A stretch of 64,000 nt of DNA. Origin: Siphonodentalium dalli. Taxonomy: Eukaryota > Mollusca > Scaphopoda > Gadilida > Siphonodentaliidae. Under the pieces are notes generated by a model, which was not told the origin of the DNA, ran no database searches, and saw only the letters and a program-made list of their open reading frames with translations. Shown piece after piece: positions 7,936 to 56,508 of the stretch (positions within the stretch are counted from its first letter, which is position 1; every line of letters begins with the position of its first letter). Both the position numbers and the translations under genes were made by a program. Location: NCBI GenBank assembly GCA_032622095.1, contig CP136069.1, positions 36,368,194 to 36,432,193 on the forward strand. Direction: 5' to 3'.

Positions 7936-9844
7936 ATGGGGTATGATGTCATATCATACAATTCCAAATATAAATCAACACTATGACACATTTGAAGCTT
8001 TATGTTTTGTGATGTTATGTTATATACATATTTATCCCATGATTATAGCCCCTAAACCTGGCGTCCTATACACATGTGCATTATCGGCATGCTCAGTGAC
8101 GTAAGAGCTGAGCGCAATGACGGAACGTTATTATTATGTTAATTAGAATATAATTATTATATTCAATTTGTGTTGGGTTATATAATGTTGACTGTGGTAT
8201 AAAGATGGGTGATGAGGGTGGTTGAAAAATGTTGTCAATAAAAAAGGACACATTCAAAATGGAACTATATTTGTTCTTGAAGGTGTCTTTACTTCCTCTT
8301 TGGTTGTGTAAGGAAATCAATATTATTTTGTTTAACCTCAGCCGTTTCGATGTCGTTTTTCCTAGATAAAATTATGTGATAAAAGGATCTCAAATTGGTC
8401 GCAATTTAAAAAAAAAATTAACATCTCCACTAAATTCGAATTTAGTGCAAATGTACGTAAATATATTTCGTATATATTTGCGACTCAGTATGGAGATCCT
8501 CTATATACACTGATCGGTGGTATGCAATGAGAGTCTGAATGAATGTCTAGTGTTCGTAAACCCTCTCAGTTCTGATTTCTACTCAGAAACTGTATCTTAT
8601 TCGGATAAGTTAGACGCATCAAGATAACACAAATAATTGATGAGGTCGGAGGAATATGTTTAGCGGCAAAGAAAATTGTCAAACTCTACTGAGTAGCGCG
8701 GTTATTAGAACTTCAAAGCTTATTGGCGAACCCCATATTGTAATGTCTCTCGGTTGTGCATTTGTCTGCGGTATTTCAGTATCAGCTGCGTTAAAATGCC
8801 ATTGACAACTATATGTGCCATTATGTGGTTCACAGTGTTCATATAATACCCAAATATGAACATTACACCATAAAACGAATTAACGTCGGTAGCAATGTAT
8901 ACACACCACATTTCAATTGCAAATTAAAAGCGATAATTACTAGTATGAAAATGATCACACACCATTATTCCAAAGAAAACATAGTTATAACATAGAGGTA
9001 ATCGGATGATGAGATATCTCCACACGTTGTACTTTGCATGTCAACAATTAAATGCTGATAAAATGCGTCTTTTTAAAATGAGTGGCATTGCAACCATTAT
9101 GGGTTCATAGCAAATCATTCAACGACTGATATAACTATGTATATACTTTATTCATTGATTGTGATTGATTTATAATGAGTTATGTTGAACCTTTCATATT
9201 GCTTTAAGAAACGCGTCCGATAATGTTTGGTGGAACTGTTTGACTTTAAACTTCTTAAAAGTAATATAGGTGGGAAAACGTTTAAGGTCATTCGAAAGTA
9301 TGTACGGTGGCAATGAGCCATGTGTTAAAAAGATGGGCGCCACATCACATTTTCGTGAAACATAGTCGTGACGCAGGTACAGAGCGTACCCCTTTCCATT
9401 CTCAATATTCGAAAAAGACATGGAATAGTGTTGTATCAGACTGTTGTATAGCCTTGATGATGTTGACGATTCTTTTTGGTGAGTTCCGCGAATATCTTAA
9501 AATTGTGTGAATCCTTTATGCGGATGAAACAGTTCTGATAGAAGAGAGGCCAGGCAGTTTGCAAATGGCATTAAATTTTTTCACATATTATATGGTTATT
9601 AACCGTGAATGCCGAGTAAACAAAAAATAACCAAAAGTATAAAACGGCGTAGCAATTAGCGTTGGATGGGTCGATTGTAGAAATAGTTGATATTTTGTGT
9701 TACTTGGGATTACGATTTTGTACGGCCTTGCAAAGAATTAGTCAAGTTGGAACGAATCTAATGTACGCACGTCTTCATAGAAGTGATCTGGCGAATCTTA
9801 AAATTAAAAACCCAGTTCCTTTACCGTGACTTTCTTTTCCTTCA
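7936..9844. other. Unassigned intergenic sequence with a 20-bp palindrome
   Basis: A perfect 20-bp palindrome (cactaaattc / gaatttagtg) lies at 8428-8447. No other feature was recognised. Confidence 0.4.
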
Positions 9845-10441
9845 ATTTTGAAACGACTTCCAAATGTAACTTTGTAACCCATTGTTAGCAAGTATAGTTG
9901 AAATATTTTCATTTTTCTTGAGTTATTCTCTGATAAGCATTTGTAACTATGTAACAAAAAACAAGTCGAATTTTGGAAACGACTTCAAAATGTAACTTTG
10001 TAACCCCTTTTAAAGAAGGATGGGTGAAATATTTTCATTTTTCTAGTCGGAGTTATTCTCTGATAAGCATTTGTAACTATGTAACAAAAAACACGTCGCA
10101 TTTTGAAACGACTTTCAAATGTAATTTTGTAACAAAAAACACGTCGCATTTTTGAAACGACTTCCAAATGTAACTTTGTATCCCTTTATTAACAAGGCCA
10201 GGTAAACTATTTTCATTTTTCTAGTTGGAGTAATTCTCTGAAAAGCATTTGTAACTATGTAACAAAAACACGTCGCATTTTTGCAACGACCTCCAAATGT
10301 AACTTTGTAACCCCATTAAAGAAGGATGGGTGAAATATTTTCATTTGTCTAGTTAGAGTAATTCTATGATAAGCATTTGTATCTATGTAACACAAAAAAC
10401 ACGTCACATTTTTTGACTCGTCACCTCTGTAACCCGGTTAC
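9845..10441. repeat. Minisatellite, ~129-bp unit, about 4.5 copies
   Basis: The motif cgactt-c-aaatgtaac recurs at 9854, 9980, 10109, 10158 and 10287. Spacings are therefore 126, 129, 49 and 129, which shows one partial unit. Each full unit also contains 'gaaatattttcattt', 'attctctgataagcatttg' and 'tatgtaacaaaaaacacg'. No protein-coding frame is conserved across units. Confidence 0.9.
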
Positions 10442-10599: not shown

Positions 10600-11300
10600 T
10601 CGAATACAGACTATCATACTGTGGTCCCCGACCATACAAGCATAACGACACCAAAAAGTGTCCAAAAATTTCGACCAAATTAGGGGCAAAACATCGAATG
10701 TTCCAGTTTTCGTAGTTTTTGGCCCGATGTTGACCGGATAAAGACCACCGATGTGTGGCCCCCGACCATGCAATCAAAATGACATAAACAAGTTTCCAAA
10801 AGTTTGCGAAAATTTCGACAAAATATGGGACCAAGAATTGAATTTTTCGGAATTCGTAGTTTTGTCCCTATCTTGACCGGATAAAGACTACCGTAGGGTG
10901 GCCCCCGGCCATACAATCAAAATGGCACAAACAATTTTCCAAATTTTGAACCAAATTAGGGCCAACAATCGATTTTTTCAGCTTTCGTAGTTTTGGCCCG
11001 ATTTTGACAGGATAAAGACTAACGTGGGATGGCCCCCGATCATAGAAGCACAATGTCACAAGCAAGTTGTCAAATTTATTTTATCATAATTAGCGGTCTA
11101 AATCGAATTTTCTAATTTTCCTCGTTTGGTCCGATTCTGACAAGACAAAGACTACCGTTGGGTGGACCAAGCATACTATCAAAATGACAAAAAATGTTGC
11201 CAAAAACATCTGCCAAAATGTCGACAAAAGTAGGTGCCAAAATCGAATAATCCCCAAACCATTTTAATACTATAAACACTCGGGTATTGGTTCTTCGGTT
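10600..11300 (-). repeat. Tandem repeat, ~134-bp unit, five copies
   Basis: 'Tggcccccgaccat' and close variants start at about 10621, 10755, 10898, 11028 and 11162. Each unit also holds 'gaccggataaagac', 'gtagtttt(g/t)gcccg' and 'ccaaaattt'. On the minus strand each unit reads a similar peptide (RGP...SLYPVKIGPK...), but 134 is not a multiple of three, so no frame runs through the array. I regard it as non-coding satellite-like DNA. Confidence 0.9.
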
Positions 11301-15546: not shown

Positions 15547-15606
15547 TACCAGAGTTGTCCATCTTACCGATATTCATGAATATCGGCAAGATGGACAACC
15601 CTGGTA
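15547..15606. repeat. 60-bp near-perfect palindrome
   Basis: The arms taccagagttgtccatctta... and its reverse complement meet at attca/tgaat (centre 15576/15577) with only about two mismatches and no loop. It is a foldback remnant or cruciform-forming site. Confidence 0.8.
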
Positions 15607-17356
15607 TATATTGACGGAAACTCGGAGAATACAGCAGTGTTAAGCGTTCATTACACTCACCGCATAACAGTTACTGAAACACGTAACATAATGAACTTGT
15701 ATTCATCTGTTAATGACCTTGTTGTATCATATTGTACGTGCACATATATTCGGAATCGATAGTGTACGTGCACTCAGATACATGGTCGGACTATTCAAGT
15801 TTGTATATGGGAACTGACAGTATTGTGCATGGTCTCGGTCCTACTTAACGAGAAGTTTGTACTGTTAGAATACTGCAATTAGACACTTAGAAGGAAAGGA
15901 TTTTTATTGAGGAAGGCAAGTTATTTGAAGGGTATCGCACCATCGGTTTTACGATGGAGTGTGTGAGCGTATAGTCAATATTGTTGAGATTCCGACAATG
16001 ATGGTAATCGATGACAGTCAAGACTGGCCGCAAGCGCTCTCACAGAAACTCCAATCTCCAATATTTATTCCACTTATTTCATTGACAGCCACATCAATAT
16101 CATTATCATATGTATTTAAGGAACGAGTCTGCCAGACTTTTAGTCCCCGTATTTAACATACAACACTTTACACTAACGCACATATCACAAATTAAAGGAT
16201 TGGCATTAATCCGATTTCTCACAATGTATTGCTTCTACATCAGAGTTATACTTACATTACATTATTCGTTATCAATTTCCCATGTGTTCCATGTGTTATC
16301 TCTTTGTTTTTTGCTTTAATAAAATTCTAAGATTTTGCACTTCCGTTCTTGGTAATTATTTATTGAAGTTTATATCCTTATTACCGGCAAGCTCATGGCG
16401 GTTCATGTTGTAAACAGTAGCATCTCTTATCGCCTTGTCTCCTACATATTTCGACTGTAATATGATAATTACAGATAAGTTTGTATTCTAATATTATGTA
16501 CGTAACATTTGAAAAGACACGAATTCTTAATCTGGATTGCATGATGTCATTTTCCCTGATTGTGCGTGGTACATGTATCTCCTTCCAGTCGTTTTCGCCT
16601 GATATATCAGAATGTTGAGAATATGTCCTTTCTTGCAACTATACCGTCTTGTATCTCACTAATGACGCGATGTTTACATTCTAATCATATACTAATATAT
16701 ATGACCACTGTTTAGTAGACCGGCGATATCGAGTTGGGAAATCCCCTATACTGTAAAATGGATTATTAAGGAACAAGTATTAACAACGAAATTAATTCCC
16801 TGATTTACTATTTAAATATTATATAGTGCTCAGTTAGAACGTCAAAATGTATCCATGTTTTGAACTGGTGGAGTATGATTTTTACGGAAGTTGCCCAAGT
16901 CGAGATTCGTGACAATGAGCTGAAGGGTGAACATCAAACGGGAAACATACCCAATTAATTTAAGTTCATGTTAAATGTTATGTTTCCTGTCCGTCGTAAA
17001 TTATATGTGTCTATCCGGCATATAGTGTCAACACAATTATTATGTTCTCTATTCGTTCGTTCTCATTTTATTCCGTGTCCACTGTTGTTGTTTTTTTTAA
17101 GAAAAGAGTACGTGCACAAACTGTTGCACATGGGACAGCCATTATCTTCGGCTCCCGATACGACGGTGTGCCTATAGCACAGTGTCATTACTGGACATGA
17201 CGCTATCACACTATGAGAGGAGCGTAGGTTCGAATATTGTCGAGTATCGTAATTTTCAAAGCATTGGTTACGGAATCGTTGATATATTCATGATTCCCAC
17301 GACACTGACAATGCAGACAGAGTTGATACACATCAGTGTAATGAATTTGATTTCAG
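15607..17356. other. Unassigned sequence upstream of the PAN exon
   Basis: A poly(A)-signal-like AATAAA lies at 16318-16323 after a T-rich stretch, which might mark a transcript end, but no coding exon was found before it. A splice-acceptor-like 'tttgatttcag' ends at 17356 and would place a 5' exon boundary 44 bp upstream of the PAN-exon ATG. Confidence 0.35.
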
Positions 17357-17400
17357 TGAGAAGAGTCGACATCAAAGCAGCCTTTAGATCTGCCTCGACA

Positions 17401-17706
17401 ATGGTCACGGCGCTGTGTCTAGTTGGCATCGCTGCGCTGTGTGCAGTGGAAGTGGACGCTTCTAAGACACATTTCAACTCCACGCTCATGGAAGTCCTCA
17501 CAGGAAAAGCAGAGAATGACATCGTCTCAGATAACAATGGAAAAGCAACCGTCCACAACGAGGGAGCTTGCAGTCTTCTGTGCGTACAGACTGAAGGATG
17601 TGGTCAGGCAACATTTTTCAGCACACCTATGGCCAACGGGAACTGCTTCCTAGGTGGGAACGGCTACTTGGTTAGCAATGTCACAGGGACAGTTATTCGA
17701 CCAAAG
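17401..17706 (+). CDS. PAN/Apple-like secreted protein, first coding exon (likely lectin gene)
   Basis: The exon encodes 102 residues. The ATG chosen gives a typical signal peptide (residues 1-20, MVTALCLVGIAALCAVEVDA); the open frame extends upstream to 17182, but an acceptor-like site ends at 17356 and the upstream residues look non-coding. The mature part has four cysteines (57, 61, 67, 82) in the pattern C-x3-C-x5-C...C with 'GCGQATFF' and 'NCFLGGNGY', which resembles a PAN/Apple module. These modules are extracellular and bind protein or carbohydrate. Two N-glycosylation sequons are visible (N26-S-T, N93-V-T). The exon ends at AAG followed by GTGAGA in phase 0. The next recognised exon on this strand (32720) needs phase 1 input, so an exon between them is missing from my annotation or this is a separate gene. 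The domain call is by pattern, not by search. Confidence 0.7.
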
Positions 17707-19413
17707 GTGAGACGATTAACGGTTATGCAAGTTTTACGTGTATGTTACGCGCGTATCAAAACGCATTGTCACGAATGCACATCTTCGTACACGTGAGCCC
17801 ATGGCGATTATGTATATTCACCCGATACACAGAGTACAATCAGATATAGACTTAATTGCGAATATTATTTAAAAGCTATAGATACTTAGTTGTATACCGT
17901 GTACGCCCATCGAGCCAACATTTACGTTATATAAATCTTAATACTAAACTGACCACGACACATCATAATGATTATATTGAATAACGGAGAAATTCAGAAA
18001 TTATACACAAAAGCGGTTTTTTAATACAGCCGTATATTTAAGTTTAAAGCGTTTCATACATAAAAATACACCAGAGCAACTTGGACCCATACTCTTTGTA
18101 ACGCAACACAATCAAAATCAATTACTATAACCGAGTTAACTGGCAGATTAATAGAGCATTTAGCTCACATTTTCAAGGTTATTCACAAAGCTCGTTGCAA
18201 CTTCCGTCTACACAATATGGAAGCAAGAAAAAGGCGTGTGGGGTCCGAAGTTGTTTGGACATTAAATGTTGTTGGCAGATAGTTATGTGTCGCTAATACA
18301 ATCAAGATATCCTTCATTTTTGTTTTGAGTATTTGATGAATTACTAATTACTAAGTATCAATGATACCAGTTTCCATGTGTTTTCGGAAGACATATATTG
18401 ATTAGCTAGATGTTTTTAATTTCTACATAATTCCATAAAGAATGGAAATTAATGGCATGGGATACTCTAGAGGAGTAAAAACAAATAAATCAAAACGACA
18501 GAGTACTGTTGGTGATCGATATTAATTGTATCGTGTTAATGTGGGTATAAATAGATTGAGTGGCATAGTTCATACGTTAAATATAGTTGTAAGTTCCCCA
18601 TCGGATATTCCCATGTGTGCTTACTATATTGCCATTAATGTATAATTAAATTATGGTTTGTCTGTCAAATGGATATATATATATATATACACTAAGGTTT
18701 GAACTTTGTACAGAACATGTTTTGTCTGTTTTTCGAGGCAGTATACAATAATTGCAAATAACATATAGAAAAGTTCGCTGTGAGTTCTGTGTGCAACTTT
18801 CATAAATTACGTATTTATTGTGTGTACTCAAAATAGGCAACTTTCGCAATTGATTTTAGGGGTAGGGTGAAGTATCCATATTATTTTTTGGCGTTTTAAG
18901 AACATAATGGCAAATGTTATATTACAAAGGCCACAAATGATCAATCTATTATCAAAATCGCGGGAATCATCTTCTCCCGAATAAAGAATGCGTTCAACAT
19001 GGCCAACAATAAAAAGAATCAGCAAGCGATGTTTGACCAACCTAATTATGACGCTGTGCTCTTATAACACATACCGATTATTACATAATAGTTATGCTAA
19101 AACATGTGTGTACATAAAACGCATGTTCCATGTGAACCTTAACGAATAACAACATTCATTATTAACAACGTTATATTAGCGACGACACACAGTTTACCGA
19201 GGACAAGGTAGTACATGTTGACAGCCGGCGATTACTTTGGACCAAGGAACTGCGAATAGAATCCTGCATAAATTACATATCTCCAAGCCCAGGAAACAGA
19301 CATGATGAGACACAGTTAAATGGTTAAACCAGTATTCAGCCTCAAGCAATATACCCATATTATTGGCGTGTCGACATGCTATTTTGTCTCGCGGGTCGTC
19401 GGATCGTCATTAC
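17707..19413. other. Intron sequence, nothing recognised
   Basis: Begins with the donor GTGAGA. Contains a TA microsatellite at 18672-18689. No coding frame or clear repeat was seen. Confidence 0.4.
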
Positions 19414-20297: not shown

Positions 20298-23063
20298 CAC
20301 ATAGGTGTGCTTGTGTCCAAACCGTATATATATCTCAAATAACATATTTTGGCTTACATGAGATTAAATATTTGATTTTTTTAACGTGAGGGGAATATAC
20401 CTCTAATATTCATTGTCCGCTGTTTATTTTGACAGGTAGTACGCGATTGTGATGTCGAGTAAATTTGGCGATTTTATTTCGATATCTGCTAAAAGGTGAT
20501 ATCGTACCAACTGTTGTACCAAGATGAAGAACATGGTTCTCATAGCTGATCAGTGTATAACCTTGCTTCGTGTCCCCATTATTAATTTCTTGTTGCCATT
20601 CTGGACGTCTTCCTGGATTTGTACGAATATTCATCAACTAAAATGTTTGTGAAACAGTTACCTCAGTGATCCAATACACACATACTTTTGGATAGTCTTC
20701 ACGAGAATAACGCGCACTGGTTCAAAGCAGACATTGCGTGATTAGCGTCGAGTCATATGTGGTAAGACGTCACGTTTGGGGCTTGAAAATCGACATAGTA
20801 TGCATATGGTGGTCATATTTTGAGTCCTAATGAATCTTCTATCGGGCAGGTCTATAAATTCACAAATTTATCAATGTATTCCCACAATGAGTAATGATAT
20901 GTGGTGAAATGATTACTGTTAAAGGTGCGTTTCACATTATGGCTTCCATCTTGGCCGCATATTGGAATTCGGTGTACGATGTTAAACTCAATTATAAAGG
21001 CGATGTATAAGTCTGGCGAATCGTGTGGAAAGTACGACATCCTATGTAATGTATGTGCTATACTGGCTATCTAAGAGACCCTTGTGTATATCAAGGAAAA
21101 TGGCCACCAATCTGGACGCCATCTTGTTTGGAGATTATACGGCAACTTTGCTTTGTTAATATCCGAGTGAGACGAGACCCTAATGAAGATATTTGGGGGG
21201 TGCAAAGATCGACCGATATCTCCTGGACTAGTTATACTGATTCAGGAAACGGCTTTTCATTTTGAACTCTGTGACCTTTCGACCTGTTTGACATTGGTGA
21301 TAAGATACTCACGATCACACATAGTCTATCGTGCAGCAAAAGCACACCCTTTCGTTAGGTACATAACATGTCATCAATTTAAATACTCTTACTGTCGTCA
21401 TATTTTTAATTCCCTACACCAAAACAAATGCAACCAAAACAATTATGGTCGCTGCGAGAAACGATGGCAATTTCCATACTTTGCACACAGATATCACAGA
21501 GAACTTTTGATGTGTTGTCACGACGAGCCCCCCCCCCCCCCCCCCGAACACAATAAGAGTGAAATAACTTTTGTCAAGGTTGAGTGAGCCCATAGACTTG
21601 ACAAATAGCTTCCTAACTGCACTACAAATGATTTTAATGATGTTTTATTTTTATTTACAACCTGCTATACAGAAAGGTGAGTGATAGAACAATTAAACAC
21701 GAAACGAATTCACACTGTTTATACTACTAGCAGAGGTTACAGCCGCTGCCAAAGTTGAGGTGATTTGGAACCCTCCGTTGTGGAAATTTGATGGAAATCA
21801 AGAATACTATATAAAACATAGTCGTATAAGAGCGACGTATTTTATCCCAAAGGGTTAGCCAGATGCGTGAATTTAAACCAAAAATTGGGTACAAACAGAA
21901 ACATGTTTGGTAACGAGATCTTTCACTGGTATAGATCACTACAACATACCGCATGACATTTCAGATAAGTGAGCTATACACTAATGTTGCGAAGTACTTA
22001 GACGAAAATAAAACATATTTATAAAGTACAAGTATTTTGGCAGTATTGCTATTAATTAGCGAATGGGAGTAATTTGCAGAGCAGAATCGTGGGAACTATA
22101 TTTTTTGCCGGAGGGATGCGCGCAATGACTGATAACTTTCTTTCCAATAAATTTGTCGCCGAAGACGGTCGCTTATTTTGACAACCCTCCCTCCCTCCCT
22201 GTTTTTTTTATTTTTGTTTTGTTTTGGGAAATACACATTCGATTGATGTCTCCCTCTTTTGGCCTACATCTATATAGGCGGTTATTGTGCCTCAAAAAAT
22301 TGCCACCCACATGTTTGTATTGGTCACTACTACATTTATTGTATCGGCTTCCTGTAGATAATTATGATTTTCTAAACAGGTAGCTATAAACGCATTCCAG
22401 TTGTTGTCTTTCACTCTAACCCTGTGGGATAAATATAGTAATGTGCTCAATGTAGCACAACACAACACCAATTATATTATATTATAGTATATGCTATTAT
22501 ATTATATCGGGTGGTGTCATTGTGTAGATTTGCGTACATTTCTGATACAAATTTATATGACACGACAGAACCAACACGTTTTACGATTTCTGGTGCATCT
22601 AGCTGCCCGCGCGTAACACATGGCCGAGAACCACGCCATAAATTTCTCTAAAATTCTGCAATATGTCTGACATCGAAGTGTATAACGTTTTGTTGACCTA
22701 TATATATTTACATACATATAATATTTCTTCCGATTTCCCCATAGCGTTACGATAACACTCCCTGATTCACAATGATAATACAGCTATGAGCGCATTGATT
22801 CAATGTCGGAAATTGGTGGACATAAACGATCCGTAGCGAGCTGTCTATATGTGTTACGTGACAAGCAATGTGCAATTAAATTTGGAGAGAAATGTTTTGG
22901 TATTAAAACCTAGGAAATCGAGGCATTATCATTCCAAAAAGTAAAGGAAATCGAGGGTTTTATAGTGACAGTGGATTCTATTAAAAACAGCTGTATGTTC
23001 GCATTGGATACTGACTTAATTCGTAAAATATATTAAAGCGCAAACGCTGATCGAAAATCCAAT
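20298..23063. other. Intron sequence, nothing firm
   Basis: Contains a C-run at 21528-21545 and AT-rich runs near 22470-22510. A 134-codon frame at 21183-21587 overlaps the C-run and shows no domain. The 5' end of the LINE that follows may start some way before its first ATG at 23064, but I could not place it. Confidence 0.4.
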
Positions 23064-25160
23064 ATGGCGCCAACCAACACAAACAAAGACGGAGTAGTGA
23101 CGCGATCGGCATCAACGGAGAATAGTGATACGACTAAAAACAAGAAACTAAATCCGGGCGACGATCCTTTAACCCACTATCAACCTCACAACAGCGGGAA
23201 AGGCAGTGCAAATAAATGGACAGATGCTCCATGTGATGTAACTTTCGTCGTGGATAAAGGTGATCTTGATGTTTGGAGTAGTGCGATTGAGGAAATATGC
23301 AAAACGGACTATAACATCAACCGTAAGACATTAGACAACATGTACACACAAATGAATCTGCAAGACATTAAATCTAATGCTAAATTTGTGTCAATCAACA
23401 TGTATAACACTGGAACGATATTAGTACAGGGAATACATAACTGTGTAGTTTGGCACAGCAGATTTTATGACCGCATTCTAGCCAGGGTGAAAGGCAGCTA
23501 TGCACAAGAGAGTGACGAGACCCAGCCAAAGAAGATACAACAGGAGTCCCAACCAGCCTTGAAAGGCAGCCATGCACAAGAGAGTGACGAAACCCAGCCA
23601 AAGAAAATACAACAGGAGTCCCAACCAAAGACATCAAAAGTGGCCAGAAATAAAGCACCTAAGCCCACATTGTCAAAACTTCCCAAACCTGTGTCACAGC
23701 CCAGTGAGAACAGTGGTCCGAGCATTCAGGATATGTTCCGTTCCGTTGAGAGCACGCTTGCAAAGATATTGTTACAACTAAATGACATTGCCGACCGCAC
23801 CAAGGAAATAGACAGTCTAAACAATAGGATCGACTCAATATATGCAGCAATAAAATCTTCAATCACGAAACCAGAAACACCAGCCACCGATATAATGCCA
23901 GATATTATTGTTGATAGACTTGTGGATGCATTAAAATTAAATAGCACAACAACCGAACAGCTGCGGAGAAAAGTGTTAGCGAACCTGGATAGAGATAAGG
24001 CTCCACCACCTAGTAAACATATGCCACAAGCAAGAAACGAGTCAAGGACACAAGTCGATGATTCGTATGTGGAGACGACAGAGAACGACGAAATAGAATA
24101 CCACATACCAGTTGATAATGTGTATGATACCCTGCGGCGTGATAACTATCAAAGCGATTCGTTTATAGATACATATGTTAGCACAAAGTCTGTGGAGACC
24201 CATCCAGAGAGAACAACCATACATCAGTCTAGGTCTGACAGCTTGGAGTATGGTAATCTTATTCGAATTCCATAGCTAGGTGGGTGAAAGGACCAAGATT
24301 AGACCGCAAAGGAAACACATGGGTGATATACGTACCTACAGGCATATCAGGTATGGATGAGTTTCTTTGGAATGCGGATATCAACAATGTGGTTAAACAG
24401 CTGGTCGTTGTAACAGGTCACGGTGATATCGAATCAGGCACTGTTGGTGATGTTCGTGAGAAATTCAAGCAATTGATCAAACTATGTCGAAGTCGTTTCC
24501 CCAAAGCAACAATCAATATCTGCGCACTGCATCTGCACAGATCCGGCGATGAGGTGAACAATAAAATAATTGAACTCAACTCAGAACTGGAAATCGAATG
24601 CGAATCGGACCCTCGTCTCAAATATAAAGACTTTGTCAACAATTTTATGTTCCATCCAGGCATTCCCAACCGTAAGCTATATTGGGACAGCTTACATCTT
24701 AACGATCGAGGGATCGGCAGATTGTGTACCATCTTGAAGGAGATACTTGTCAACTGGAAACATTCTGAACGGATATAACCGTGACGGCAATGACCAGTCC
24801 AATCAACACGGACGACGAACGTGGCATGAAAATAGCAGTCGAGGAGACCCGAGAGGCACAGGCTATTATTACGGATACGACGGAAACCGCGGGCGTGGTA
24901 CAATATACCGATATGAGGATTATGAACAATATCCCGAAAGTTATGGATATAATGAACGCAGATTCTTCTCGAATGGTTTTTCGTCGGGGGATTATCAGGG
25001 AATACCAAACCTGTATGGTGGACATAAATCGCCAATCAGACGAGATGATCAAAGAAAAAACAACTGGACTAACTCTAGGAATTATGACAATGACAAGCAT
25101 CTTATTGATTTATGTACACGTACATTGCAGAAATTATCTCCAGACACCCTGCGAGGCTAA
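23064..25160 (+). pseudogene. LINE ORF1: coiled coil, SGNH-like and basic tail, frameshifted
   Basis: The first 403 codons (to 24275) are intact: a polar N-terminus, a globular block at about residues 50-145 (WTDAPCDVTFVVD ... GTILVQGIHNCVVW), a Lys/Gln-rich linker with a 24-residue tandem duplication, and a predicted coiled coil near residues 220-270 (SVESTLAKILLQLNDIAD). After a stop the frame moves, and 24284-24778 reads an SGNH-hydrolase-like segment with VVVTGHGD (in place of GxND) and a terminal D-x-x-H (WDSLHLNDRG). A further shift gives a Gly/Arg/Tyr/Asp-rich tail to 25160, likely RNA-binding. In CR1-type elements ORF1 esterase domains are known; their role is unclear. The SGNH first block (GDS) was not found. 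Confidence 0.75.
23489..23632 (+). repeat. 72-bp in-frame tandem duplication inside ORF1
   Basis: Two copies of a 72-bp unit (starts 23489 and 23561) encode 24 residues each, beginning KGSYAQESDETQPKK and KGSHAQESDETQPKK. The unit keeps the reading frame and lies in the linker between the globular block and the coiled coil. Confidence 0.9.
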
Positions 25161-25216
25161 AGATTTTCAGGTTGATAATTCCAAAACATTTTTCTTATAT
25201 TATACAAACGCTTACA

Positions 25217-28200
25217 ATGTCTTTGACCGTAGCAAAACTTAGAAACCTTAAAATATCATTCTGGAATATACATGGTTGGAAAGATAGCACTGGAGTAAAC
25301 TAATGTTTAGATGACCAGTTTATTGCCCAGCATATTCTCAAATTTGACATAAGTGCATATTTAGAAACCTGGTTATATGATAAACAATCAGTTTGCAATA
25401 TCCCTGGATATACAGTATTTCCCAAATTTAGACAACAAAATAAACGAGGTGGTAATGTTATTTACTGCAGAACAAATATTATTCAGGGTGTTAAACTATT
25501 GCAATCAGCTAGTAAAAACATTATCTGGCTCAAATTAAGTAAAGATTTCTTCAATACGCCATCCGATGTAATTCTGGGAACAACTTATTGCAGCCCAGAG
25601 AGCTGTCTAACTCAACAAAAGAATCCAGAAGAAACATTTGATATCTTGGCCCGTGAAATAAAACGGTACTCCCAGATTGGGCAATTACTTATACAAGGGG
25701 ATACTAATGGCAGGACAGGGGGGACTGGCAGATTATCCTCGGAACGAGGAGAACAGACATCCCATAAATAAACGGTGTAATGTTGATAAAACAATAAACA
25801 GCAGGGGGAGGGCTTTAATTGATATATGTATTGACTCGGATATGCGAATCGCCAATGGCAGAACAACAGGTGACATTACAGGAACGTTCACATCATTCCA
25901 GCCAAACGGGTCATCGGTTGTTGATTATGTTATATACAGTGATCCCCTTTACGAACACTCTCACACTTCCACGTGGAGCCTTTAACGATACATTCATATC
26001 ACTGTCAGTGCTTGTACACATTAAATGTTAATACTACTCTAGCAACAGTAGATCGAAGCGTCACAATCGAACTCACACAATTACCAAAAAGCTTCATTTG
26101 GAGTGACGCATCAAAGAAAACTTTTCAAGATGCATTTCAACATATTGATATTCAAAACAATATACAGGAACTAATGTGTTCAGAAATCTCAGATCCAGAA
26201 ATAATGCAATGTAAAGTGAATGCTATATTTCATGTTGCCGCTTCTCGTTCGTTCAAATTGCGGAACAAAGCTGCATGACTAAGATTCGTGTCAAACGTAA
26301 ACCGTGGTTCGATTGCGCATGTTATGAGATGAAACAACAGTTGAAGCTTTGTGCACGGGAACTTAATGCTCAGCACTATGATCCAGTCGTCCGGGGAAAT
26401 TATTTGTCGCTAAAGCGTCAATATAAAAAACTCATAAAAAGGAAACGTGATGATTATCGGAGTAATATATATGGGCAACTGGTACTCATGCAAAACAATA
26501 AGCCGAAGGAATACTGGTCGCTAGTTAAACAATTGGATCGCGAGTCCTCTAATTCAAATAAAATGTCGCAATCAGTTAGCCCCGATTAACTCTACGAACA
26601 CTTTAAAAATCTCGGACAGACAACGGACGACACCGGTGACCCTTTCTCTGATAACATCCATGGCCAGGTATCTGACATGGAACAAAATATCTCCTCCAAT
26701 AATCACCTTGATTATGACATATCTACAGAAGAAGTTGAAAAAGCATTGCGTAATTTAAAAATCGGAAAATCGACCGGCCCTGACAACATTAAAGCAGAAA
26801 TGCTGAAAGCTTCTAAAATATATACTCTCCCACTGTTAACACGTCTTTTTAATTTAGTTCTCAGTAAGGGACATATACCTAGCAAATGGACTGAAGGCAT
26901 AATTGTTGCAATTCCAAAATGTAATAATGCAAATTCCCCGGACCAGATGCGGGGTCTGACATTAACTAGTGTTCTTGGGAAAATGTATGCCAGCATTCTT
27001 CATGTGCGTCTAGACGAATACTTAAACGAAATGGAGGTTCCTTCCGAATATCAGTGTGGCTTCAGAAAGAATTACAGGACCACAGACAATTTATTTATTT
27101 TAAAATGTTTAATTGAAAAACGTATACATGATGGCAAAAAATTATACACATGCTTTCTGGACTTCAAAAGGCATTCGACAGTGTCTGGCGAGAAGGATTA
27201 TTATATAAACTATTAAATCTAGGAATTGGGGGAAACATCTATATGTGCTTGAAAGAAATAATAACCAGTTATTCTTCAAGGTTAACAATCAATGGAACTT
27301 CTCTTACTGCACCCATAAACAGCCAAATCGGCTTAATGCAAGGAAATAACCTTAGCCCTTTATTATTCAATATTTTCGTAGATGGTCTAGAAGGAGAACT
27401 AATGGCCGACGACATGCATGCACCTTGCATAGATAATTTTAAAGTACCGTGTTTAATGTACGCTTACGATCTTGTATTAACTTCGGAGTCACAAGACGGC
27501 TTGCAACAAATGTTGACTCAACTGAACATTTTTTGTACGCGGTGGAAACTAACTGTGAACAAAAATAAGACAAAAATATTGATTTTTAACAAAAGTGGAA
27601 AAAAACTAAAACACAATCCTTTTCAAATTGGTACTCATGCGTTGGAAACGACACAACAATATACATATATTGGGTTGAAACTAGCGGCGTCTGGCACTTT
27701 CTCACCCGCATTAAACGGTTTAAAGATTAGAGCATCGAGAGCTCATTTTTCACTACAAAGAACATGTGACGACTCGGCACCCATTGATGTCACGTGCAAA
27801 CTTTTTGATTCTTGTGTAAAACCGATATTGACTTATGGATCTGAAATATGGGGTGACTATTCAGAAAGTCGCAAGGAAAATCCCATCGAAAAATTCCACA
27901 CACAATTTTGTAAACGAATTTTGGGATTATTTAGAAACACATCTAATATGGCTGTACTAGCCGAAATGGGTATATTTCCGATCTATATCAATGTATTAAG
28001 GAACATGATAATCTATTGGCTTCGAGCTAACACTTTGTGTGATAAACGATTGGTGTATAAATGTTTAAAATTGATTTCTTGTGATGCAGATAATGAGTGG
28101 TTACAGTGTATTAAAAATAACTGGATTTGGGTACGTGTGGGAATCACCAAAATCAGTCAACATAGATACTTTTGGGGAGAAATTTCAATCCCGATTAAAA

Positions 28201-28661
28201 GACCATTTCCGACAAGCATGGAGGCACCTTGATATAAAAGATGCATGTGCAGAACATAGTAAATTAGAATTTATGGGAAAAATCAAAACAGATTTTGAAA
28301 CAAGGGCTTCTTATTTAACAACGTTATCTCGAAATGAAAGACGTCCCATGTCGAAACATGTTACAAGCTCGCACAAGCTATAAATAGAAATAGGCAGACA
28401 TGTGAAACATAATCCAATCCCCGTAGAGGAACGAACTTGCAAACAATGTAGTCATAATATGCCCGCTAAAGATAAACATATCGAAGATGAGTCTCATTTT
28501 TTATTACACTGCCCGAAGTACCACAATCCTAGGCAAGTCTTTAGCAGTTACGCGAAGAATGTGATATCAAATTACGATGTGTTAGACGCAAATCTAATGA
28601 TAAACAACTGAGCAGAGCTCTAAGTAAATATTTAATTGAAGCCGAAATATTACGACAATAA
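25217..28661 (+). pseudogene. LINE ORF2: APE endonuclease and reverse transcriptase, inactivated
   Basis: The ATG at 25217 starts MSLTVAKLRNLKISFWNIHGW, the APE Asn motif. A TAA follows at 25301. ETW (about 25358), GDTNGRTG (25697), SSVVDYVIYSD (about 25914) and HSYH (25991) mark the other endonuclease motifs; HSYH stands where SDH is expected, losing the catalytic Asp. RT begins near 26677 with KSTGPDNIKAEML, AIPK, GFR, a frameshift at FLDF (about 27160), KAFDSVW, GLMQGNNLSP and MYAYDLVL at 27459-27470, where YADD has become YAYD. A conserved C-terminal region follows (TYGSEIWG, FCKRILGL), then a CKQC...H...C zinc knuckle (28434-28520) and the end ALSKYLIEAEILRQ. Frame changes occur near 25720, 25975, 26275, 27160, 28140 and 28612. 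The element cannot encode active enzymes. Confidence 0.9.
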
Positions 28662-34859: not shown

Positions 34860-35960
34860 AATATTTAAGTAAACATTATAAATCAAACATCTTAAACAGG
34901 TATGGATGAAACACCTAGCCCGATATATAAAAAACTACTTTGTGATAAATTGCAAACCTTTGCGATAAATCACAAGCTACTTTGAGATAAATATAAGCGA
35001 TTTAGTGCAAATGTTTTCGATTTATCACAAATGTTTGCTATTAATCGCAATGGTTTGTGATCTATCGCAGCTATATTTTTATGCATTGGTACTAATGGGC
35101 TTGAGCCGTATACAAATTATAAATCAGACATCTTAAACAGGTCTGGATGAACCACCAATCTATCTATAAAAGCACAGTCGCGTTAAAATAGACCGAACGG
35201 TCTTTCACAGCCAGCATGCATGTAGGATAAGGGGAGCAAACATATGCGATAAATCACAAAATAGCTTTGCGAAAAATCACAAACCTTTGCAATAAATCTC
35301 AAACATCTTTACGATTACTTTCAAACTACTTGGTGATTTTACTTTTCGATTTATCGCAAAGATGTTTGAGATTTATTGGAAAGGTTTGTGATTTATTGCA
35401 CGTACAATTTTATCCGTTGGCACTAATGGGCTTGAACCGTATACACATTATAAATCAGACATCTTAAACAAGTCTGGGTGATCCACCAATCGATCTATAA
35501 TAGCACCGTCTGGTTAAAATAGACAGATCGATCTTTCACAACCAGCATGCATGTGGGATAAAGGGAGCCAGCCTTTGCGACAAATTTCAAAACAACTTTG
35601 TGATAAATCACAAACAGCTTTGCAATAGCTCGCAAACCTTTGCGATAAATCTCAAATATCTTTAAGATAACTCTCAAACTACTTCGTGATTAAACTTTGC
35701 GATTTATCGCAAAGATGTTTCAGGTTTTTTGCAAAGGTTTGTGATTTATCGCAGAAATATGTGTATGCGTTGGCGCTAATGGGCTTCTGTGTAAACATAA
35801 ATCAGACATATTAAACAGGTCTGGGTCAGGATTTCCCTGACCGTTCCCTGCACGTGTAGTATAATTTGTCTGATTGTCTGAAATAATGGGCCAAATGTAT
35901 TAATTTGTGTGTAGTTAAAGTAAACATTATAAATCAGACATCTTAGACAGGTCTAGGTGA
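34860..35960. repeat. Satellite-like tandem array, ~330-bp unit, with GCGATAAATCACA clusters
   Basis: 'Cattataaatcagacatctt' recurs at about 34875, 35115, 35446, 35795 and 35930. Between these anchors each unit holds both orientations of 'tttgcgataaatcacaaa', forming internal stems, plus 'ccagcatgcatgt' and 'gcactaatgggctt'. The first and last units are truncated. No protein frame is kept. Confidence 0.85.
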
Positions 35961-38780: not shown

Positions 38781-39077
38781 TGTTCATTAACTCTGACGCA
38801 ACTTTTCCCACCGTCCCTGATTCGAGCGGTGTGACATTTATGTATATGTAAACGAAGTATTAACATTCTATGTACTAGAGACCGTTCGCAAAATCACGAA
38901 TACGATTATGGATATGGAAATATCACGCCAGTATACGGCAAAAATTTGATTTTTATGCACGGGGGTTCTTATGCGAGACGTAATATACCCCACTCAGTTA
39001 ATTATGTGCAAATGTGTCAATAATTAGCTTAGGGACACTCTAACATTCTCCGTTCATACAGAATTACCTGTTATCAA

Positions 39078-39300
39078 TAAAATATGTTGTTGTTGTAACT
39101 GGGATATGGAAGTCTAAACATATCTGTAATCAATTAAATCGCATCTCTGGACACCCCTGTCAGTACACGATTTATATCTGGTCACATTAAGATCAATTAG
39201 AAAATTGTAAAGTCGTTATCAAAAATGTGTAATTTTTCGACCAAAACGTGTTTGGGGAGGGGTAGCTAAAATCAAGTATCTCGCAAACTATTCAAACTTT
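39078..39300 (+). repeat. 225-bp direct repeat, copy 1
   Basis: Begins 'atcaataaaatatgttg' and continues 'gtaactggg', 'tgtaatcaattaaa', 'cattaagatcaatt', 'aaaacgtgtttggggagg' and 'ggtagctaaaatc'. The same sequence is at 41724-41955, directly abutting the right end of the large palindrome. Confidence 0.85.
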
Positions 39301-40844
39301 CTGTTAACTTCTTTATCCGCATGCTTGCTAGATAACTACTGCACCACATTGATTAAATATGTTGGCGTTATTACAATATATGTTTAAATGATAATGTTTG
39401 GAAAAAATATTTCCGTGAAAAAGAGAGATTTTTCAGCAGAAAATAAATGATTCGGCTCCAAATGGTAGGAAAATCCAAATTTACCAACACTTTTTCCTAT
39501 AAAGTAAAGGTATGGTATGATGTGGCAATATTAACACAAACAATCTTTGCAAATAAGTTAGAACTTCGCCACACCTTTCGCCTGACCAAAATCGTTAATT
39601 TCTGGAAAAAGTTACTTGTGGGCATCTTTCATCGTCGATTTGACAATAGCCACCACCAATTCCGATATTTTTCACTATCAATTTCGTGAACAATATATGT
39701 TTCAACTTGTTCTACTGTGAGTAGGGGTACCCGACCACTTTTGGCGTTTGGTTGCTGCGCTATTTAGTCTTAGTATATTATAATATTACTCGACATAAGC
39801 CAGGGGCCCGTGTATGTGCTTAGGGGTGACGCATATTACGAGGGGGCCAAGTGCCAAGCCCTTGTGGTTCATTGTTTGGGTTAATATATATTAGTTTCAA
39901 CAATATTATGAATATAAATAAAGTTAATTTATTTCATCAATTATAACAGCATTATATGCATGCATGCGTGTATTCATGTTTCCGAGTTTGCTGAATAAAA
40001 TAATTTGTCCGCAATTTTGAAAGTTATTTAGAGTTCACGTGTTTTTCTCGAAAATAATAGTAAAAATAGGGAAAATGCAACAGAACAGTTCTTATTCCAA
40101 GGTGTATAACTAAGAGAGGAAGATAGAATGTATTCATTAATATATATGTTTTTGAAGCACATATGCCAAGTAACAATTAAATTGTGAACAATATACAAAG
40201 TTTGGTATATTTGGCATAAAAATACAATGATTAATGTTATAATTTGCTATGGTAATTTTAATTGCATAGCAACTGTTGTTATGGACAACACATTTGACAA
40301 CATAATCAACGTGAGAGGAATGGGGAGGGAACCTTTAATGTGGACACAAAGTTTCTGGCGGTCTTTGCCCTTTCTCTCGAAAATGTTATAACAAATGTTT
40401 TTGAGTCCAATTTATGCAAATTTGGCATATCTAATTTGAACTTGACCTTTGACCTTGATAGAGGTAACTAGAAAATTGCCAACAATGATTGTATTTATCG
40501 GGGTATCCCATAGCACATTATTAATATTGTTGGCGTATAGTACTAAAAATGTTTAACAAAAATTGTTCTAGCCACCTTTTCTCTGACCTGCCTCCTGACT
40601 ATGTGCCGACTTCACTCATTCATGCGTTAGACCAATAACAGTACCAATCATATTGCCATACTGGTTAGTATCAGATCTTGTTCTGATCAAACTAGAGCAG
40701 CGCATGTACATTAATATAATGGTTCCAGCTGTAATGTTTAAAAGCTTCTTAGAACAAGGATATACGCCATAAACAGCCATTATTATTTGCTACCTTGTTC
40801 GACTATGGCAGATATTAATGTAATTTTGGTAACACTCAATGTCA
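39301..40844. other. Intron sequence between direct repeat and palindrome
   Basis: AT-rich; no gene or repeat recognised. Confidence 0.4.
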
Positions 40845-41723
40845 GATTTTATATAAAGATGGATAAACACCAACACCCCGTCCGATCTATGGACGGGACA
40901 TTCCATGTAGCACTCTACACTGCCTTTTATTGTTTCGACCTATTTTGTTCCCGAATTTAGGAATTGGTGAACCCGCAAGGTCATCACCAGGAGAGAGCGG
41001 AAGTCAGATTCCTCAAAGTAACTGAGGGATCGACACATACATGTATATGTGCATGGTAGATACAGTCTGTCTCGGGACAGCTGAGTTGAGCGATGGCCTT
41101 CAAGTAGGATTCGCATGTTGTTCAGAGTAACATGCCTATTATAATAAGCGTGAGTAATTGGGTCATTCGTTGTGAAATAGCAGTAAGTCGGACGTAACAT
41201 TATGTGCAAGTTATCGCATACTGGAGTTGTGTGGTCTGTACTTAATTTGTTGCGAATATCGGTGGTCAATATAACCCGAGCACGTGCTCTATTGACAACC
41301 AATATTCGCAACAAATTAAGTACAAACACAACTTCAGTCTGCATTAACCTGCACAAAATGATGCTTCCGACTTATTGCTGTGTCACAATGAATGACGCAA
41401 TTACTCACGCTTATTATAATAAGCATGTTATACTCTGAACAAAATGCGAAGCCTACTTAAAGGTCATCGCTCAACTCAGCTGTCATGAGACAGACTGTAT
41501 CTACCATGCACACATGCGCACATACACGTATGTGACGATCCCTCAGTTACTTTGAGGAATACGACTTCCGCTCTCTCCTGACGATGACCTTGCGGGGTCA
41601 CCAATTTCTAAATTGTGTGACAAAATAGGTCGAAACACTAATAGGCAGTATAGAGTGCTACATGGAATGTCCCGTTTATAGATCGGACGGGGTGTTGGTA
41701 TTTATCCATCTTTATATAAAATC
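40845..41723. mobile_element. 879-bp foldback palindrome
   Basis: The two arms of about 439 bp are inverted copies differing by scattered substitutions and a few small indels; by eye they are above 90% identical. The centre is 'gagcac/gtgctc' at 41283/41284 with no spacer. The outer ends read 'gattttatataaagatgg' and its reverse complement. Matching landmarks in both arms include 'ccccgtccgatctat', 'gagagagcggaagtc', 'cctcaaagtaactgaggg', 'atacagtctgtctc' and 'ttattataataagc'. The open frames on the two strands (138 and 78 codons) are mirror readings of the same arm, not genes. It is probably a non-autonomous foldback DNA transposon or an inverted duplication; the 225-bp repeat starts at its right edge. 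Confidence 0.9.
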
Positions 41724-41955
41724 AATAAAATATGTTGTTGTTGTAACTGGGGGTCTGGAAGCCTGAACAAATATGTAATCAATTAAACGGTATTTCTGGA
41801 CAACACCCTGAGTACAGGATTTTTGTTGGGTCCCATTAAGATCAATTGGAAAATGTTTGTACAATTGTTAACAAAATTATGTAATTTTCGACAAAAACGT
41901 GTTTGGGGAGGGGTAGCTAAAATCCAGTATCTCACCAACCGTTCAAAACATAAAT
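41724..41955 (+). repeat. 225-bp direct repeat, copy 2
   Basis: Diverged copy of 39078-39300 in the same orientation, beginning immediately after the palindrome. Confidence 0.85.
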
Positions 41956-42699: not shown

Positions 42700-43640
42700 C
42701 AAATTATCTGATCGAAACGATACCTCGTATGAGTAATGACAATTACGTTATTGAGGTCAGTTTCAATTATGGTTCCAGTCCGATGTTTTTCTCTCTGATG
42801 TATGGCCCTTTTTTCTTTTCTTTTTTATTTCTTTTTACTAAGATATTATTAGTTATCTTCGGCAACATCGGGGGTAGATGGAGATTTAATACCTGGATGT
42901 CGATTTTGAATCCCGAGGCGGGGCCGATGGGTTCAAAAAGAGACATCCAGGTATTAAATCTCCATGTACCCCACGGTGTTGCCGGAGATAACGATTTTGT
43001 CCCCACAACAATAACCATGTCTCCTTAATTTAAGTGTGTTTTTCATAGGTTATCCGATTAATTCACACCAATAAGAATAATTCAGTAGCTGACCTAAGGA
43101 TCCGGCGTTAGGTGACGTCAAAGTCGGCGTGCGAGAGCAACGTCACGATTGGCGGAAACTGCCAGTTCAAGGTTCATTCATATACCCCCGATGTTTCACG
43201 TGCTCATATACCCCCTATGTTTGGCGCATGTTCTCTTATACCCCGCTGTCAAGGGTGACGGGGGACATGGTGATTTAAACATGGCGTTGTAGCCAATCAG
43301 ATTGCTATTTTCATGTTGTCATGATAATAACTCCGGTGAATAATATCCGATCGGAACGAAACTTGGTAGTAGTAATAAACATTACATTGTTGAGGTCGAG
43401 TTCCAGTATCGTTCCGGTCACAGGATTTTGTTAGAGCTATAGTTCTTTTCAGACCTATAAATTACCATTTTCGTGTTGCCGGATAATTCCAGTTAATCCA
43501 CTAACACTAATCCCAACTAAACTTGACACAGGAATATCCATCACATTGTTCAAGTCAAGTTTGAAAGTGTTCAGAACTGCTGATTTTTGACGGAGCTTTC
43601 TCCCTTTTTCGACTATAAAATATATCATCTGTTTTGACTT
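42700..43640. repeat. Degenerate repeat region interrupted by a hairpin element
   Basis: Three diverged blocks (about 42710, 43355 and 43490) share 'atc(c/t)gatcg(g)aacga', 'cattacattgttgaggtc' and 'gttccagt'. A short three-copy repeat of 'tcatatacccccgatgttt' type lies at 43180-43245. Confidence 0.55.
42852..42992. mobile_element. Hairpin MITE-like element
   Basis: Outer stem 'gttatcttcggcaacatcg' against 'cggtgttgccggagataac', inner stem 'tggagatttaatacctgga' then 'tgtc' against its exact complement. The loop (gattttgaatcccgagg...) is about 35 bp. No frame of interest. Confidence 0.8.
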
Positions 43641-45500: not shown

Positions 45501-45713
45501 CTACGACATTATCGTGCTCTTTGGATTTGGCGGGAAAAATAGTTGCAATATTTCCGTTCACCATAACACGGAAAGCCCCGAGTAAAAACATTTTTAAGCA
45601 GTATATTCGAGTCCTAATCTCTCGTCCAATTTGGAATATGCAATAAAAAAATTAGAGCTTATAAAAAAACAAAAAAACCAACAAAAAAACCTTGGTTTAT
45701 TCGTCCTGGGCGG

Positions 45714-46178
45714 TAACTCCTCAGGAAAAGCGCGGACACAAGTTTTGATGCCCGTGGGCAGTAGGGCATATCGAGGTGTGCATACGGTCCAATTTTCGAT
45801 GCTCTGCTCCTTATAATTTCCGAGATAATAAAATGAAATGTTTTCAGATAAAGGGAGATAACTCCTCGGGAAAAATGCGGACACTATGCTTTATGCGACC
45901 TGGGCATACAACTCTTTGAACCCAACATACGTACCAAGTTTTAGTGTGCTACTCCTTATATTTTTCGAGTAATAAGGGTTGCAAAAGTGTCAAGTATAAT
46001 AATAATAATAATGAAAAATAATCGAAAAAGGGCCATAACTCCGTCAAGAAACATTGGACCGACATGCGGATACCTTTATTTTTAGTAGACCTCAGATGCC
46101 TACATATTCGCTACAGGTTTTGTGTTTCTACTGCAATTACTTTCTGAATATTTCCAAATAAACGGAAAACGGCGCCAG
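45714..46178 (+). repeat. 465-bp direct repeat, copy 1
   Basis: Nearly identical to 46975-47439 with a constant 1261-bp offset from end to end, so there are no net indels. Only a few substitutions were seen (for example ctctgctcc against ctcggctcc). Contains 'gataactcctcgggaaaa' and 'ggccataactccgtc', which I associate with molluscan repeats. Both copies end exactly at 'cggcgccag'. Confidence 0.95.
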
Positions 46179-46203
46179 AACATCCGAGAATAATTAAAAA
46201 TTG

Positions 46204-46690
46204 GTACCACGGACCACCCCTCTCAGACCCACTATAATGAACCGACACTGGCAAAATTTGGTCAGCCGCGTGCCCTCTTCAGTCCGCACACATTGGCGTA
46301 TCAGATGACATCCTATGTTCGATATCTTCGGAGGAGATGTGGTCACAAGCACATGGGCCCAAAATTGCAAAGTTTGAGGGCCTGCAATTCTTTCAGTTTT
46401 CGATGGATTTTCGAAATTCTTTCAGTTTCTAGACCGGCTGATGTTGCAGATGTTATATTCCAAGTTTCATCTGATTCCGAGAAGAATTAAAATTTGGCAC
46501 CACGGACCACCCCTCCCCAGACCAACAATAATGAGCCGATACTGGCAAAATTTGGCCCACCGCGTGCCCTCTTCCGTCCGCACACGTTGGCGTATCAGTT
46601 GACATCCAAACTTCGACATCTTCGGAGGAGATGTGGTCACAAGCACATGGGCCCAAATTGCAAACTTTGAGGGCCCGTAACTCTTGCATT
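46204..46690 (+). repeat. Tandem duplication, 293-bp offset, between the 465-bp repeats
   Basis: 'Accacggaccacccctc' begins equivalent parts near 46206 and 46498. Both copies continue 'actggcaaaatttgg', 'cgcgtgccctcttc', 'ttcggaggagatgtggtca' and 'aagcacatgggcccaaa'. Confidence 0.9.
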
Positions 46691-46974
46691 TCTTCTCGGA
46701 TTTCAAAAATCCTTTCCAGTATGGGTTTGTTTTCGTTCAGGGAATCAACATACTTAAATAGAGGAATGTCAATCAAAACCTTTTGTTTCCGAAAATTTTG
46801 CCCCCACTTTGCCCACACCCCAGCGTCAAAATATATGTCCGACCCTGTTCAATTTTCTTTTTCAGACTAAACTGACAACGGTCAACACGACTATGAAATC
46901 CAAATGCAGTTATCTCTAATGATACGAGAGTACAGCATAGTAAATGAAATAGAGGTTTGCCTATTTATGGGCTG

Positions 46975-47439
46975 TAACTCCTCAGGAAAAGCGCGGACAC
47001 AAGTTTTGATGCCCGTGGGCAGTAGGGCATATCGAGGTGTGCATACGGTCCAATTTTCGATGCTCGGCTCCTTATAATTTCCGAGATAATAAAATGAAAT
47101 GTTTTCAGATAAAGGGAGATAACTCCTCGGGAAAAATGCGGACACTATGCTTTATGCGACCTGGGCATACAACTCTTTGAACCCAACATACGTACCAAGT
47201 TTTAGTGTGCTACTCCTTATACTTTTCGAGTAATAAGGGTTGCAAAAGTGTCAAGTATAATAATAATAATAATGAAAAATAATCGAAAAAGGGCCATAAC
47301 TCCGTCAAGAAACATTGGACCGACATGCGGATACCTTTATTTTTAGTAGACCTCAGATGCCTACATATTCGCTACAGGTTTTGTGTTTCTACTGCAATTA
47401 CTTTCTGAATATTTCCAAATAAACGGAAAACGGCGCCAG
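46975..47439 (+). repeat. 465-bp direct repeat, copy 2
   Basis: See 45714-46178. The sequences flanking the two copies differ on both sides, so the repeat boundaries are sharp. Confidence 0.95.
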
Positions 47440-47669
47440 TACAAAAACAATATACTTCCTTGGTTACACCATGGAAGTATAATATATATATATGAATATT
47501 TGTAGATGAATATCTTTCATGCTCACAAGTTTAGGATCACAACTAAATTTATTGGAAAAGGAAAACAATAATATTCATTATGTGAGAAAATATGATGCTA
47601 TATTTAAATATTAATTGACAGGAGCCAAATATGTGACCCGTGCAGTAGAGCAATTAGCACCCTCCTTAT

Positions 47670-48655: not shown

Positions 48656-48992
48656 AGTAAACTGACGAGTTCCATCCGGACTCAGGACAGTCTCAGAGAT
48701 GGCACAGTCCATGGGCGTGGCTACAGGGTTTCCGTTGCGTTGTCTGTCTTCCGTGGAGGTTCCAGTTGCACAACACATTGAAGCAGACCGAACATTCCCG
48801 ATGTGAGGAATTCCATCTGCACCAGGCCCTTTAGATACTCTGGCTAACGCCCGTATTCATCATATTCCACCAGCTCAAAACCTGGGAACGTTTTGAAGTT
48901 TTGATAGGGAACCTTATAAAGTCGAAAAAATAACGCAGGGAATATATTTATTTTAATACATGTTGCTCAATACTTAATACAAGTTATAGAAA

Positions 48993-49139
48993 ATAGCTAA
49001 CTGTCATCAGCGACGAACGAAGTTTCTCCTCGCGTGAGATGCGCAGGATTATTTCTGACGAGGCGTTAGCCGAGTGAAAAATAATCCTCGCATCTCACGA
49101 GAGGAGAAACTTCGTTCGTCGCTGATGAGAGTTAACTAT
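48993..49139. mobile_element. Hairpin MITE-like element in the probable 3' UTR
   Basis: Arms of about 58 bp ('catcagcgacgaacgaag', 'tttctcctcgcgtgagatg', 'aggattattt') are matched by their inverted copy ending 'cgctgatgagagttaac'. The loop is 'tctgacgaggcgttagccga' with flanking bases. It lies between the lectin stop codon and the first AATAAA. Confidence 0.85.
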
Positions 49140-49184
49140 TGTGTTTATTATATTTTCCACAGCAGTTTGTCACGATACAACTCT

Positions 49185-55419: not shown

Positions 55420-56360
55420 TGCATATATATAAAATTGGTGAAAATTGGCGAGTATACAATTTCGTATAAAATTTAAGGTCCCCATATCTCTCACCCATAG
55501 GGCACCAAACAAGATATAATTGTTTGTGTCCCTCTTATCTCTATACACCACTGACTCGAATGGCCCCACTTGTGACATCCTTAAACCACACGATTACACT
55601 CCTGATATCTTGAAGATGATTGTTTATAAGTTTGGTGATAATCGGCGACTAAACATTTTTGTTTTATCAAATTTGGTGCAAATCCCTCCCCTCTCCATCT
55701 CTCACTCAAACAGCACCACTATGGCGTCTTTAAATCACGATTAGATTCCTCATATCATGGATAAGAACGTGTATCAATTTGGTGGAAATTGGCGCTAAAA
55801 AAAGTGTGCATCAGTTTTGGTGCCCTTGTCCCTTTCAATGCAACCCTGACTCGAATGAGGCCACATATGACAGATAAAAGCCACACCATTAGACTCCTCA
55901 TACCATGGGGATGATTTTGTATAAGTGTGGTGGCAATCGGCGACTTATTATCAAATTTAGTGCCCACCCCCTCCCAATCTCTCATCCAAAAACAACAATT
56001 TGGCGTTGTTAAATCGCACAATTAGATTCCTTGTATGATGAAGAAGAATATATATAAATTTGGTGGAAATTAGTTTTATCAATTTTGGTGCCCCTCTCCC
56101 CTTCCATTCATCCCTGACTCAAACGACGCCACTTTTGACATATTTAAACCACACTGTTGGATTCTTCATATCCTGGGGATGATTATATGTAAGTTTCGTG
56201 GCAATCGGCGACACAAAAAATCTGCCCACCCCCCCCCCCCCTTCCGGGCAGCCCTGGCGCGAACGGCGCGACTTTTGCCATATTTAAACCACGTCATTAG
56301 ATTCCTCATATTATGGGGATGATTATATATAAGTTTGGTGGCAATCGGCGACAAATATTT
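55420..56360 (+). repeat. Tandem array, ~140-bp unit, about seven copies
   Basis: 'Tataa(g/a)tttggtgg(c/a)aatcggcga' recurs at about 55420, 55615, 55758, 55908, 56040, 56174 and 56313. Units also hold 'tgcccctccc', 'ccctgactcgaacg', 'ccacttttgacatatttaa' and 'attagattcctcatatcatg'. Earlier, weaker units extend back to about 54860. Confidence 0.8.
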
Positions 56361-56508
56361 TTTCTGCCCCTCCCCCTTTTCTGCCCCTGACAACAACGGC
56401 GTCACTTTAGAAAATTCTAACCCCGACCATTATCTTTCTCGTAAAAAGCTACTCCTAGTAGACCCCTTTGGCATAATCTAGATGGTCCCCTGTGAATTTC
56501 TATAGAAC

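Follow-up and report, generated by a model that had tools for sequence, protein, structure and literature searches.

The question raised by this locus is what a long palindrome is doing in the genome of the scaphopod Siphonodentalium dalli, and whether it calls for anything beyond ordinary mobile DNA. It lies in a 64,000-nucleotide stretch of contig CP136069.1, called the window hereafter. Our answer is that the structure is confirmed and its nature is ordinary; it is most likely a known kind of element, judged on one copy.

The earlier note described positions 40845-41723 as an 879-bp palindrome without spacer and as the largest inverted structure in the window. When the window was searched by BLAST, this interval matched its own reverse complement over 892 columns with 86.5% identity, gaps counted, giving arms of about 435 bp each that meet without spacer. 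The size, the place and the lack of a spacer are thus as described, but the arms are about 90% alike and not perfect. When 40848-41720 was split at the exact centre and the arms were aligned globally, 385 of 427 aligned columns were identical (90.2%), and the 446 columns of the whole alignment contained 42 substitutions (23 transitions and 19 transversions; K2P 0.106) and 19 gap columns. The longest perfect runs between the arms are 26, 25, 25, 24 and 23 bp. At the centre there is a perfect 12-mer, to which a gap of 6 nt is adjacent in the BLAST alignment of the arms; the central 20 bp have 55% G+C, i.e. they are not A+T-rich. The left arm has 44% G+C versus 34% and 37% in the flanks, and both arms stop at the same point, beyond which the flanks are unrelated.

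A chance origin is excluded because, folded as RNA, the palindrome reaches -653.4 kcal/mol versus a shuffle mean of -225.3 (sd 9.4, n=20; z -45.5), and 0 of 20 shuffles folded as well. Self-comparison of the window by BLAST (minus strand, E 1e-5) gave ten rows, two of them overlapping, and hence nine distinct self-reversed places, among which the palindrome is the longest. In a gapless scan for spacer-free palindromes, four places in the window scored at least 22, the best being 57.5 at 2082-2262; the large palindrome, which is broken by indels, showed only its central 94 bp with a score of 29.5. Of 10 first-order Markov windows scanned likewise, one reached a score of 12, and the other nine had no place scoring 12 or more.

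The ends of the palindrome need closer attention (Table 1). The body, GATGG...CCATC, is 853 bp long and is bounded on both sides by TTTATATAAA. Because TTTATATAAA is its own reverse complement, a duplicated target and a repeat tip look the same here, and a single copy does not allow a choice between a target-site duplication and the outermost part of the inverted repeat. The outermost 3 bp of 40845-41723 are GAT/ATC, and it is doubtful from the sequence whether they belong to the palindrome. Since the ATC on the right doubles as the first bases of an adjoining 227-bp repeat, we prefer the limits 40848-41720 for the element, slightly shorter than at first proposed.

Table 1. Parts of the palindrome and copies of the adjoining repeat, in positions of the window
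Feature	Positions	Strand	Basis or remark
Left TTTATATAAA, self-complementary 10-mer	40848-40857		Candidate target-site duplication or TIR tip; read directly
Left arm, begins GATGGATAAACACCAACACCCC	40858-41283	+	BLAST and global alignment
Centre of symmetry, perfect 12-bp palindrome GAGCACGTGCTC	41278-41289		Arm alignment
Right arm, ends GGTGTTGGTATTTATCCATC	41284-41710	-	BLAST and global alignment
Right TTTATATAAA, identical to left copy	41711-41720		Read directly
Adjoining 227-bp repeat; left end abuts the palindrome, outside it as drawn	41721-41947	+	83% identical to 39073-39296
Second copy of the 227-bp repeat, no palindrome beside it	39073-39296	+	CTGTTA at 39068-39073 and 39301-39306

We looked for coding content and for further copies. 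The one long frame of the palindrome (40940-41371, minus strand) had no Pfam match, and neither did the six frames of 36-50 kb, palindrome included, at E 0.01. No transposase domain was found inside it, as is required of a non-autonomous MITE or foldback transposon, and the terminal inverted repeats of such elements are represented here by the whole palindrome. No tandem repeats were listed within it by Tandem Repeats Finder. BLAST of the window against itself detected no further copy in the 64 kb. The left arm had no blastn match in plasmids and phages, and exact patterns of 18-24 bases, taken from the arm or tip and from the adjoining repeat, had 0 matches in viral contigs and prokaryote genomes, these being collections in which the host is not expected.

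On this evidence, we consider that the palindrome is probably (about 0.72) a fossil non-autonomous palindromic DNA transposon of the long-TIR MITE or foldback type, consisting of almost nothing but inverted repeats. This reading is favoured because the arms share one end point, beyond which the flanks are unrelated, and TTTATATAAA stands on both sides, because the long frame has no Pfam match and the G+C content of the left arm differs from its surroundings, and because eight other self-reversed places, all shorter (51-181 bp), are found in the window, as one would expect if palindromic MITEs were abundant in the genome. We also counted in its favour that the arms differ less at their tips, though not significantly: 1 difference versus 3.9 expected in the first 40 arm columns (P 0.075), 3 in 60 columns (P 0.13), 5 in 80 (P 0.16) and 6 in 100 (P 0.09). 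The reading is weakened because no second copy was found in the window or in the collections mentioned above, and because the TIRs of Tetris, a known foldback element, carry tandem sub-repeats that the palindrome does not have. It is also weakened because not all eight other places need be MITEs; two belong to one tandem array (about 35 kb) and a third is enclosed by a wider inverted pair (about 20 kb), leaving five that are free-standing. The simplest account is that the genome contains palindromic non-autonomous elements of several families, of which 40848-41720 would be the longest here.

The palindrome itself, its sharp ends, the identical 10-bp motifs at them, the lack of a recognisable coding domain and the divergence of the arms are observed, and from them we infer its transposition, its transposase family and its age. 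A transposase supplied in trans by an autonomous relative would bind the two like ends (GATGG...CCATC, or ends including TTTATATAAA), excise the element and insert it at an A+T-rich site by cut-and-paste, and nothing in this copy itself would do more than serve as the substrate. The inserted copy would then have been immobile while its arms diverged to about 10%. All of this divergence is later decay provided that the arms were identical at insertion; it gives no clock if the arms of the family were already unlike when it moved. The 10-bp TTTATATAAA, if it is a duplicated target, would by analogy suit a transposase of the Mutator type, for which a target-site duplication of about 8-11 bp is typical; the 10-bp candidate seen here is self-complementary and from a single copy.

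Palindromic MITEs are termed snap-back elements, and the palindrome resembles them in being non-coding, in being an inverted repeat from end to end and in sharing the window with shorter palindromes that differ in sequence; it differs in being longer than the usual MITE and in having one copy seen in the 64-kb window. Among better described systems, Tetris of Drosophila virilis is a foldback element with target-site duplications of 8-10 bp, from which its authors suggested the Mutator superfamily, and its TIRs with their tandem sub-repeats reach up to 1,735 bp (PMC4079207). Tm1 of Meloidogyne includes MITE-like foldback elements with 9-bp duplications, and its transposase resembles that of the Phantom subclass of Mutator (PMC3169594). 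The palindrome shares with both long inverted repeats as the main feature and a candidate duplication (10 bp) of similar length, and with Tetris also the lack of coding capacity. Unlike these elements, it has no middle domain and no tandem sub-repeats, its arms are about 435 bp in comparison with the longest Tetris TIRs, and it is known from one copy without a known transposase. The human palindromic A+T-rich repeats (PATRRs) are likewise near-perfect palindromes of several hundred bp, but they are reported to be over 90% A+T (PMC7999016), unlike the left arm here. MITEs have been reported to form a considerable share of bivalve genomes (PMC10294476).

Other origins have to be weighed against a transposon. 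A broken or stalled DNA end may have folded back and copied about 430 bp once, leaving an inverted duplication that was never mobile. The single copy in the window, the absence of an unambiguous target-site duplication and the perfect centre are all consistent with this, and we allow it a modest chance; but the composition of the arms is unlike that of both flanks, and the presence of several unrelated palindromes of other sizes in the same window is more readily explained by mobile elements than by a series of accidents. Head-to-head insertion of two copies of one non-palindromic element at a single site would account for arms that differ by about 10% plus indels, as two separate copies do, but it would hardly leave a zero spacer and a perfect 12-bp centre, and no target duplication is seen between the arms, so that we regard this account as improbable. 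The 10% difference of the arms and the sharp ends largely dispel the worry about an assembly error. Spacer-free palindromes are a known type of assembly or library artefact, e.g. from an unsplit hairpin-adapter read; such an artefact, however, should mirror on with arms near-identical, whereas here 42 substitutions and 19 gap columns separate arms that stop together at unrelated flanks, and an artefact is unlikely, the probability we give it being very small indeed.

It has also been proposed that the palindrome extrudes cruciforms or feeds a small-RNA pathway. Such roles may be proposed for any palindrome of this sort, but no measurement favours them at 40845-41723. A centre without A+T-richness is thought to hinder the opening of a cruciform, and the case for one is lowered here by the G+C content of the central 20 bp and by the arm differences. 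A transcript of the palindrome would, according to the folding model, form a near-continuous duplex, and the locus might thus be an active hairpin-RNA locus whose transcript is processed by dicing into siRNAs, which in turn silence sequences related to the arms. The z of -45.5 and the perfect duplex runs above 20 bp fit such a locus, but equally good folding is expected of any long palindrome. If RNA stems had been selected, G:U-compatible changes should be favoured; we examined this and obtained no support, as 11 of the arm transitions are G:U-compatible in a transcript of the + strand and 12 are not (23 events, low power). Within this low power, nothing points to selection for hairpin RNA, and the arms have decayed as expected without it. 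No Rfam family reached the gathering score anywhere in the window, and no host transcript was identified by hmmscan in the six frames of 28-64 kb. Many plant MITEs with hairpin structure are small-RNA loci, according to one study (PMC3086885); nevertheless, we hold an active hairpin-RNA locus to be quite improbable here, a shade more so than the double insertion.

Returning to the right end of the element, the two copies of the 227-bp repeat agree over their first 28 bp without gap or mismatch in a gapped alignment, and over 31 of 31 bp in an ungapped one, while no likeness was found to the left of the two copies. The CTGTTA flanking the second copy, recognised by eye, hints that the repeat is in itself a small, separate mobile element, a weak sign from one instance. 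We considered the second copy as an empty site of the palindrome and rejected it, since only the right flank matched when the joined flanks were compared with 38800-39500. Because the left end of this tail meets the end of the palindrome to the base, the two might be one composite mobile unit with a foldback head and a directional tail, or the tail might home to palindrome ends; we think this rather doubtful, and the other tail copy has no palindrome. There are 136 repeat ends in the window at E 1e-8, and 1.4% of positions are within 3 bp of one, so that by position alone a repeat end would be met at either of two palindrome ends with a chance of about 3%. In a check of 7 of the nine palindromes, a repeat end was present within 6 bp only at 40845-41723 and at 35268-35400, the latter of which sits in a tandem array. 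At 48976, a looser BLAST let a repeat reach 48972, 4 bp from the palindrome there, but none was within 6 bp at E 1e-8 and the likeness in a four-copy alignment faded before it; this candidate was discarded.

The palindrome had further been placed in the second intron of a lectin gene, a claim left unsupported, though not disproved, by our scans: hmmscan gave no lectin in any of the six frames of 28-64 kb, where the single match was below the cut-off (DUF2573, E 0.076), and a six-frame search with lectin motifs gave nothing convincing. Stops were read as X, and the E limit was 0.01 in some runs, otherwise 0.1. Besides these frames the scans covered the + frames of 17.0-27.9 kb, where LINE domains and a single match below the cut-off (PIR2-like_helical, E 0.055) were obtained, and ten single ORFs, none below 17 kb, were scanned separately against Pfam. 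Lectin exons may possibly be too short or diverged for Pfam. The ORF 17101-17796 (+) looks secreted by eye; Pfam had nothing for it at E 1, and its single PDB match was at E 0.88.

Several other elements were recorded. A decayed LINE occupies 23037-28232 (extent judged by eye from the frames), with a reverse transcriptase (PF00078, E 1.9e-19) at 27132-28232 and, in the upstream frame, a GDSL-esterase match below the Pfam cut-off (E 2.2e-4), an arrangement that we take to be that of CR1/L2-like LINEs. A 476-bp direct repeat, 45707-46182 and 46968-47443, is the most alike pair in the scan (99.2% identity, starts 1.26 kb apart), and between its copies 46183-46423 and 46476-46716 are 85.5% alike. 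Direct-repeat clusters are present at 9843-10413 and 10601-11248, with periods of 126-178 bp and about 131 bp, and overlapping direct matches at 55518-56362. At 2082-2262 there is a 181-bp spacer-free palindrome with ends GGTTATCA...TGATAACC, whose arms are alike in 77 of 90 columns and beyond whose ends A+T-rich stretches look alike by eye. Further self-reversed places are 48992-49140, 42852-42992, 6969-7065 and 15547-15606, the last being bounded by TA on both sides, presumably as in Tc1/mariner MITEs.

Instability is expected of long palindromes without a spacer. That the arms of this copy have diverged by about 10% while its 12-bp centre is intact would mean that an element of this kind is able to persist in this genome. 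Otherwise the palindrome is a further non-autonomous element among others, useful as a seed for finding its family and transposase in the host.
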